From positions 1-61,711 of IMG/VR virus record IMGVR_UViG_3300042691_048653: a stretch of 61,711 bases of DNA; one strand, 5' to 3'. Below the pieces are notes generated by a model that saw only the letters and a list, made by a program, of their open reading frames with translations, did not search any database and was not told the DNA's origin. Shown in pieces: positions 16,569 to 17,300 of the stretch. Every line of letters begins with the position of its first letter. The stretch's first letter is position 1. Origin of the DNA: a virus. Made by a program: the position numbers and the translations under genes.

Positions 16569-16961
16569 ATGAATATTAAATCGTTAATAAAAGAAACTAT
16601 ACTAAGGGAAGAAAAATTCCACCAATTAAATGCTGAAATTACTTTCACATTTGACCTATATCACGATTTTGGTGGCCACACAGCACAAAGAAAGTGGAGA
16701 CACGGTAGTAGTGAAAAAATATATGATTTAGATATCGTTAAACTACTTAATGACGCGAAAGAAGATATTATTTACAATATAATAGATGGTTACATAAAAC
16801 CTAATAGAAGATTTATTATCTCTAGAGATGGTGGTGATTATTTAAATGTTGTGGTTAATCCAGAAAAATTAGAGTCAAACCATTGGAATTTGGTCACAAT
16901 AACTGTAATGAAAAAACCTGATTTTACGGTTAGTGCTGGTCAATTACAAATATTTGTATAA
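16569..16961 (+). CDS. Hypothetical protein
   Basis: 130 residues. The N-terminus (MNIKSLIKETILREE) is a short amphipathic helix like those of the genes at 12192 and 12461. The remainder is an alpha/beta domain with GGHTAQRKWRHG near residues 37-48, then YLNVVVNP and WNLVTITVMKK. The pattern of a HxxxR-type motif followed by strands loosely recalls small toxin-like domains (DUF4258/BrnT), but similarity is too weak to name. It is an isolated rightward gene. The element on the opposite strand just after its stop looks like a small RNA gene. Confidence 0.65.
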   Translation: MNIKSLIKETILREEKFHQLNAEITFTFDLYHDFGGHTAQRKWRHGSSEKIYDLDIVKLLNDAKEDIIYNIIDGYIKPNRRFIISRDGGDYLNVVVNPEKLESNHWNLVTITVMKKPDFTVSAGQLQIFV

Positions 16962-17040
16962 AAAAAAACCACGGTATTCTGACCGTGGCTGTTCTTAATG
17001 TATTCTGACAATAAGAACATTTAATTATCTCATTATTTAT
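16961..17040 (-). ncRNA. Candidate small RNA with two hairpins sharing one loop
   Basis: Leftward unit of about 80 bases. From a consensus host-type promoter (17045-17076) a transcript would begin near 17039, form hairpin 1 (GTTCTTA at 16991-16997 with TAAGAAC at 17012-17018, inner mismatch then TG/CA), then hairpin 2 (CCACGG at 16969-16974 with CCGTGG at 16983-16988), and end in eight U. Both loops read TCAGAATA on the transcript, within a repeated decamer GTCAGAATAC. Hairpin 2 plus the U-run is a standard terminator. An identical loop in two different stems suggests a binding sequence under selection: base-pairing to targets or a protein site. The alternative is a plain terminator for the sigma operon. 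Confidence 0.55.
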
Positions 17041-17044
17041 AGTA

Positions 17045-17076
17045 CAAAGATAAATGTTTTATTTTAAAAGGCAAAA
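17045..17076 (-). promoter_or_regulatory. Bacteroidetes-type promoter for the candidate sRNA
   Basis: On the minus strand TTTTG (17072-17076) is followed after exactly 19 bases by TATCTTTG (17045-17052), matching the Bacteroidetes primary-sigma consensus TTTG-N19-TAnnTTTG. It lies between the stop of the gene at 17100 and the two hairpins, so its only product would be the short RNA. Confidence 0.7.
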
Positions 17077-17099: not shown

Positions 17100-17300
17100 T
17101 TAATACTCCTCTATACCAAAATCGTATTCTTCCTCATCTTGTATTTCATCCCATTCTAATTCTTTAGACCCATCTACATCAACCTCATCGAAAAATTTAT
17201 CTTCATCTTCTTCAAAAAGTTTTGCTTCCTCATCTGTTAACTCTACTGAGTACTTACAAATAGTTGTGTAAGATTCAAACCATACTAATTTTTTTCCCAT
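17100..17300 (-). CDS. Small acidic hypothetical protein
   Basis: 66 residues, very rich in Asp and Glu, with an ordered start (MGKKLVWFESYTTICKYSVEL) and an acidic second half. Acidic small proteins of phages often mimic DNA or bind host proteins, but nothing here proves that. It follows the sigma factor gene by three bases, so the two are expressed together; a partner role with the sigma factor is possible. Confidence 0.6.
   Translation of the reverse strand: MGKKLVWFESYTTICKYSVELTDEEAKLFEEDEDKFFDEVDVDGSKELEWDEIQDEEEYDFGIEEY

Follow-up and report, generated by a model that had tools for sequence, protein, structure and literature searches.

We report a real, previously unnamed family of phage RNAs, built from two hairpins that display the same six-base loop, CAGAAU, on unlike stems. 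Read from its sequence and surroundings, the element is a small-RNA gene where it follows a phage sigma-factor gene, and a 3'-UTR with terminator where it follows a gene for a 98-aa protein. We put the chance that each loop, with its closing pairs, is bound by an RNA-binding protein at about 45%, which places protein recognition first among the functions considered, base-pairing second and a 3'-end function third. To our knowledge, the literature describes few small RNAs from phages of Bacteroidota; the viruses that carry this one probably infect Bacteroidota.

The window is the whole stretch of DNA analysed, 61,711 nucleotides of the IMG/VR virus record IMGVR_UViG_3300042691_048653 (Table 1). 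An earlier note on this DNA had proposed a compact small-RNA gene of the phage whose two hairpins share a loop, a proposal borne out in the window and in 22 distinct relatives. The minus-strand promoter, the two hairpins and the U run that it described are all present, with nine U instead of eight, and the flanks are as claimed: the element lies behind a sigma gene, between convergent genes. The loop is indeed identical in both stems, but it is the hexanucleotide CAGAAU and not an exposed octamer. A UGU/ACA helix and a U.U mismatch, overlooked at the time, sit below the loop of hairpin 1. In the predicted fold CAGAAU is unpaired and framed in both hairpins by the closing pairs GU/AC (U-A, G-C). 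Hairpin 2, which is G+C-rich and followed immediately by U9, is an intrinsic terminator.

Table 1. Positions of the twin-hairpin element, its parts and its neighbouring genes in the window.
Feature	Positions	Strand	Composition or basis
Element (promoter, two hairpins, U tract)	16960-17076	minus	sequence
Promoter -33 element TTTTG	17072..17076	minus	sequence match; fixed distance in relatives
Promoter -7 element TATCTTTG	17045..17052	minus	spacer 19 nt from TTTTG; sequence match; fixed distance in relatives
Hairpin 1	16990..17019	minus	outer stem GTTCTTA/TAAGAAC with flanking U-A; U.U mismatch; inner stem UGU/ACA
Hairpin 1 hexaloop CAGAAU	17002-17007	minus	predicted fold
Hairpin 2	16969..16988	minus	stem CCACGGU/ACCGUGG; predicted fold
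Hairpin 2 hexaloop CAGAAU	16976-16981	minus	predicted fold
U9 tract of terminator	16960..16968	minus	sequence
Phage sigma-70 factor gene P0001	17304..18119	minus	Pfam Sigma70_r2, r4, r1_2; PHROG 351
66-aa acidic ORF P0002, between sigma gene and element	17100..17300	minus	no family match
130-aa ORF P0003, convergent	16569..16961	plus	family seen in these phages only

Could two identical loops have arisen by chance? The decamer GTCAGAATAC has two exact copies in the window, both in the element. The 823 kb searched in this phage group contain 58 pairs of hexaloop hairpins spaced 18-45 nt apart; six pairs share an identical loop, and all six come from the twin-hairpin element, which three records contain and which is counted on each strand. 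The suggestion that the same loop twice is unlikely by chance was thus correct. The element folds at -22.7 kcal/mol, against -9.35 +/- 2.49 for shuffled sequences (z -5.4). Both strands fold far more stably than shuffles, so that folding alone cannot assign the strand; a wobble-pair test gave 4 G.U versus 3 A.C, which favours neither strand. We assign the minus strand because of the promoter and the U run.

Promoters of Bacteroidota follow the consensus TTTG/TAnnTTTG (PMC2483708). The window contains 5 matches where 3.0 are expected, so the promoter of this single window is, taken alone, within chance. It becomes convincing because relatives keep it in a fixed position: TTG-N19/20-TANNTTTG is located 53-66 nt upstream of loop 1 in 13 of the 16 listed class I (twin-hairpin) loci behind the sigma gene, the three in which it was not found being L007, L196 and L006. 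It is present in L030 as well, and at most 1% of shuffled upstream regions carry such a promoter. None of six elements tested at the second site, after the 98-aa gene, has it. The claim of an independent promoter therefore holds for most relatives at the sigma site and fails for those after the 98-aa gene, whose element is an mRNA 3' end. Behind the sigma gene the attributes of a small-RNA gene come together: a conserved promoter, a terminator and no conserved reading frame. The promoter type also suggests the Bacteroidota host; by core protein, the nearest named phages are weak matches that include Tenacibaculum phages. In L025, L026, L027 and L037 a gene that is Sir2-like by sequence separates the sigma gene from the element, and the promoter is kept.

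Scanned for the doubled decamer as a pattern, IMG/VR yielded 19 loci, 13 of them with the full architecture. Further relatives were retrieved by scans with looser loops, via the sigma gene irrespective of the loop, and with a covariance model run over about 100 phage records; pattern matches without hairpins (L003, L005, L009, L012, L021, L193) were left out. This gave 22 distinct relatives, every one on uncultivated phage contigs. L016 (contig IMGVR_UViG_3300024996_000122) was discarded as a relative; its palindromes are unrelated to the twin-hairpin element and form a dense array of GGTATTCTGA/TCAGAATACC units.

Among the 22 relatives the first loop reads CAGAAU in 18, UAGAAU in two (L349 and L463), CGUCAU in one and CUUCAU in one. 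The second reads CAGAAU in 11, CAGAAA in five, CAGAAC in four and CACGGC in one, and has lost its C in one (L029, one base lost). The core AGAAU is hence kept in 20/22 first loops and CAGAA in 20/22 second loops, a constancy that is overstated, since several loci were retrieved by loop search. Thirteen loci came from the model or from the sigma-gene route (L023, L025, L029, L031, L195, L196, L198, L201, L216, L243, L245, L349, L350); in this small set the loop is kept in most, with L196 (CGUCAU/CAGAAU) and L198 (CUUCAU/CACGGC) as clear exceptions.

The stems behave differently from the loops. Both sides have changed in 9 of the 17 pairs across the 22 relatives, and 46 cells are changed on both sides, compared with 20.7 +/- 3.0 in shuffles (0/500 as high). 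The covariation score is 0.312 versus 0.146 in shuffles, again reached by 0/500, and the signal is lost when pairing partners are slid. Compensatory changes affect 6/10 pairs of hairpin 1; in hairpin 2, 3/7 pairs have changed on both sides and 100% of cells are paired. Between groups the stems are wholly unlike (GUUCUUA, AUUAAUUG, UUUUGGUG, GAUCG), while the loop is retained. The two pairs adjoining each loop are nearly unchanging (in hairpin 1, U-A in 22/22 and G-C in 21/22), whereas the outer pairs vary freely. It had been set beforehand that relatives keeping the stems and losing the loops would speak against the proposal; the opposite was seen, with stems that compensate and a loop that is mostly kept.

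Since the stems change by matched mutations and the loop stays, the loop is probably what some component of the infected cell recognises. Near-invariant closing pairs beside freely varying outer ones are what recognition of the loop together with its closing pairs would lead one to expect. Such recognition is typical of RNA-binding proteins, and for this reason we prefer a protein ligand, an alternative already named in the earlier note and as yet unproven. The predicted RNA would be about 70-80 nt long, with a short A/U-rich leader and two hairpins, the second doubling as terminator. In the window and in most sigma-site relatives, a host-type promoter within the 3' part of the sigma operon would drive it as a small RNA of its own; in other relatives the element would form the 3' end of an mRNA, and these second-site elements without promoter are a counterpoint to a general free small RNA. 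The putative recognition unit of each hairpin is G-U-[C-A-G-A-A-N]-A-C, that is, the loop with two closing pairs. The protein that binds it would probably come from the host, which is the likelier source because no phage gene tracks with the element: in the incomplete records available, no gene was common to the element phages of all groups yet absent from five comparison phages. The RNA may then act as a two-site ligand, either decoy or scaffold, or may mark and protect a 3' end. We infer transcription, the protein partner and the decoy role from these patterns. The twin-hairpin RNA is compact, backed by covariation and easy to make, its duplicated loop could be used directly as bait, and should a partner protein be found, the two would make up a new RNA-recognition pair.

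Could the loops instead be seeds that pair with another RNA? Known small RNAs display repeated loop seeds, and the unpaired state of CAGAAU in the predicted fold suits an antisense small RNA whose two identical loops find the sequence AUUCUG(AC) in an mRNA of the host or the phage, or in some other RNA, and pair with it, perhaps by loop-loop contact. We regard this as possible, if doubtful. Base-pairing with phage translation starts, as first suggested, is not supported by the count of the complement ATTCTG, which occurs once against about 6.5 expected in the -40..+20 regions of 679 ORFs from seven element phages. No second site of the 10-nt complement is conserved, and the complement in the sigma gene is limited to the window and L028. 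An exact complement in G005 and G007 was set aside, as it apparently lies inside a short reading frame and occurs only in those two near-identical records. Moreover, position 6 of loop 2 may be U, C or A, so that only a five-base seed remains.

A somewhat less probable view is that the element is a strong tandem terminator, or stabiliser of the 3' end, for the sigma operon and the 98-aa gene, its loop constant through a stable hexaloop fold or a recent spread of the DNA. Every copy closes an operon and is followed by a U run, and CCAC/GTGG stems are common in the terminators of these phages. Most copies sit behind the sigma gene; at the second site the element directly follows the unrelated 98-aa gene or overlaps its stop codon (L004, L014, L017/L019, L188, L349, L350, L463, L467), with a DUF932 gene next in most of these loci. 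On the other hand, the covariance model finds one strong match per phage record, the sigma-site element has its own promoter, and hairpin 2 alone would suffice for termination, with no need for two equal loops. Neighbouring phages have ordinary loops in the same place: in the close relatives L022 and L024 the sigma operon stops at plain terminators with unrelated loops, which indicates that terminators at this site do not need CAGAAU. Mere recent spread is disfavoured because the stems, unlike the loop, have diverged through compensatory changes.

The sigma-operon end also accommodates other RNAs. Three further classes (II, III and IV), without Rfam match, occur behind the same sigma gene in related phages, usually with the same kind of promoter, and two RNA classes stand in tandem in L006 and L187/L245. 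As several classes share the slot, trans-acting RNAs swapped at one site are a reasonable, unproven idea. In its fullest form, which we hold to be speculative and rather unlikely, the 3' end of the sigma operon would be a swap site behind one promoter for unrelated small RNAs (twin-loop, pseudoknot and two more classes, with a small protein gene there in some cases). Each would act as decoy or inhibitor against a different host RNA-binding or defence factor, the twin-loop RNA with its two sites being a decoy for some protein that recognises CAGAA hexaloops. Such a site would offer several unnamed phage RNAs for side-by-side testing.

That the element is an RNA antitoxin or cis-antisense regulator of P0003, which might be an RNase of the RelE/HigB type, we consider very improbable. 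P0003 is the usual convergent neighbour, its stop codon overlapping the U tract, and its family has the conserved motifs RKWRHG and TVMKK; it has no Pfam match and no convincing PHROG match. Its AlphaFold model (pLDDT 80) finds the HigB2 toxin 5jaa_D as second match and with the highest probability, 0.57, at a non-significant E of 0.097. Homologues of P0003 were not found in the element phages G001, G002, G003, G005, G007, G008, G042, G045 and G077, which are fragments, and the convergent genes form no antitoxin-toxin operon. Neither is this a type III toxin-antitoxin system, in which an operon places RNA repeats immediately before the toxin gene; here the neighbouring gene is convergent. A small peptide gene is hardly credible: in the window group a frame reading ATG-TTC-TTA-TTG-TCA... 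crosses the hairpins, and the window, L008, L011, L018, L025, L029 and L031 have both the ATG and an open frame, but the ATG is absent in L015, L020, L183, L187 and at the second site, and L007 has an in-frame stop.

In the collections searched, the element is phage-only. The doubled decamer is present in 78 bacterial contigs, none of which shows the architecture of the element, and a model scan of 295 bacterial genomes of one class gave no true copy, the sole match being a chance terminator with other loops between respiratory genes. A search of known phages with the element gave weak AT-rich matches only. Rfam 15 contains no family that matches at gathering or permissive thresholds; the best sub-threshold match is MicC, with 25.1 bits versus 90 needed.

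How does the element compare with known RNAs? CsrB/RsmZ-type decoys are cellular genes whose repeated hairpin loops, carrying GGA, titrate an RNA-binding protein. They resemble the action we propose, with more hairpins and GGA where the element has CAGAA; no GGA is found in either loop of 22/22 distinct relatives, and the element is not one of them. The iron-responsive element, restricted to animals, has a CAGWGN hexaloop with a C1-G5 pair and a bulged C. Like it, our element has a hexaloop that starts with CAG and varies in the sixth base; its fifth base is A, not the G required, and there is no bulged C, which excludes membership. The Guanidine-II (mini-ykkC) riboswitch is an upstream leader. 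Like the element, this gene-control RNA has two adjacent small stem loops of similar sequence; its ACGR loops (PMC2864571) dimerise by loop-loop contact and bind guanidine (PMC5486947). Unlike these, CAGAAU cannot self-pair and the element lies at 3' ends; with CAGAAU hexaloops in place of ACGR and no Rfam match, it does not belong to this class. The TwoAYGGAY motif, also a find of comparative genomics, likewise has two copies of one short loop motif, but its loops read AYGGAY, not CAGAAN, and its sources (gut, gamma-Proteobacteria, Clostridiales) are not phage-specific (PMC2864571). Both loops must read AYGGAY for membership, and ours read CAGAAU/C/A. FopS/GibS of Bacteroides, bound by RbpB and with one copy reported in a phage, are, like the element, short Bacteroidota small RNAs with the same promoter type and a terminator end; their seed is a single-stranded 5' stretch before the terminator hairpin, whereas the element has repeated loops (PMC11697453).

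The other RNAs of the sigma slot have features of their own. Class II lies directly downstream of the sigma gene (L208, L213, L215, L230, L245 and others) and consists of a GGGUUGAACCGAGAUUACCC...CUCGGC H-type pseudoknot, two or three hairpins and a terminator; its 29 distinct sequences show strong covariation. Class III, GGGAAGCUUACUCCUGGGGUCGUAAGUCGUCGUGACACCGCGG..., is very conserved among 8 distinct sequences and has a terminator at its end; it occurs in L204, L205, L209, L210, L221 and L226, and upstream of the element in L006. Class IV (L197, L203, L212, L250, L253; 6 distinct sequences) has a closing stem GGUUAAGUAG/CUACUUAAUC and a conserved GAUGGAAGACGAUUCAGAUACUA. In L030, about 370 nt past the sigma gene, a larger structured RNA behind a promoter of its own has kept a single CAGAAU hairpin with GU/AC closing, far from the terminator; another fold takes the place of the second hairpin. 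In L259, about 180 nt past the sigma gene, ATTAATGTCAGAATACTGTGATTT follows a class II RNA and resembles what is left of a decayed first hairpin.
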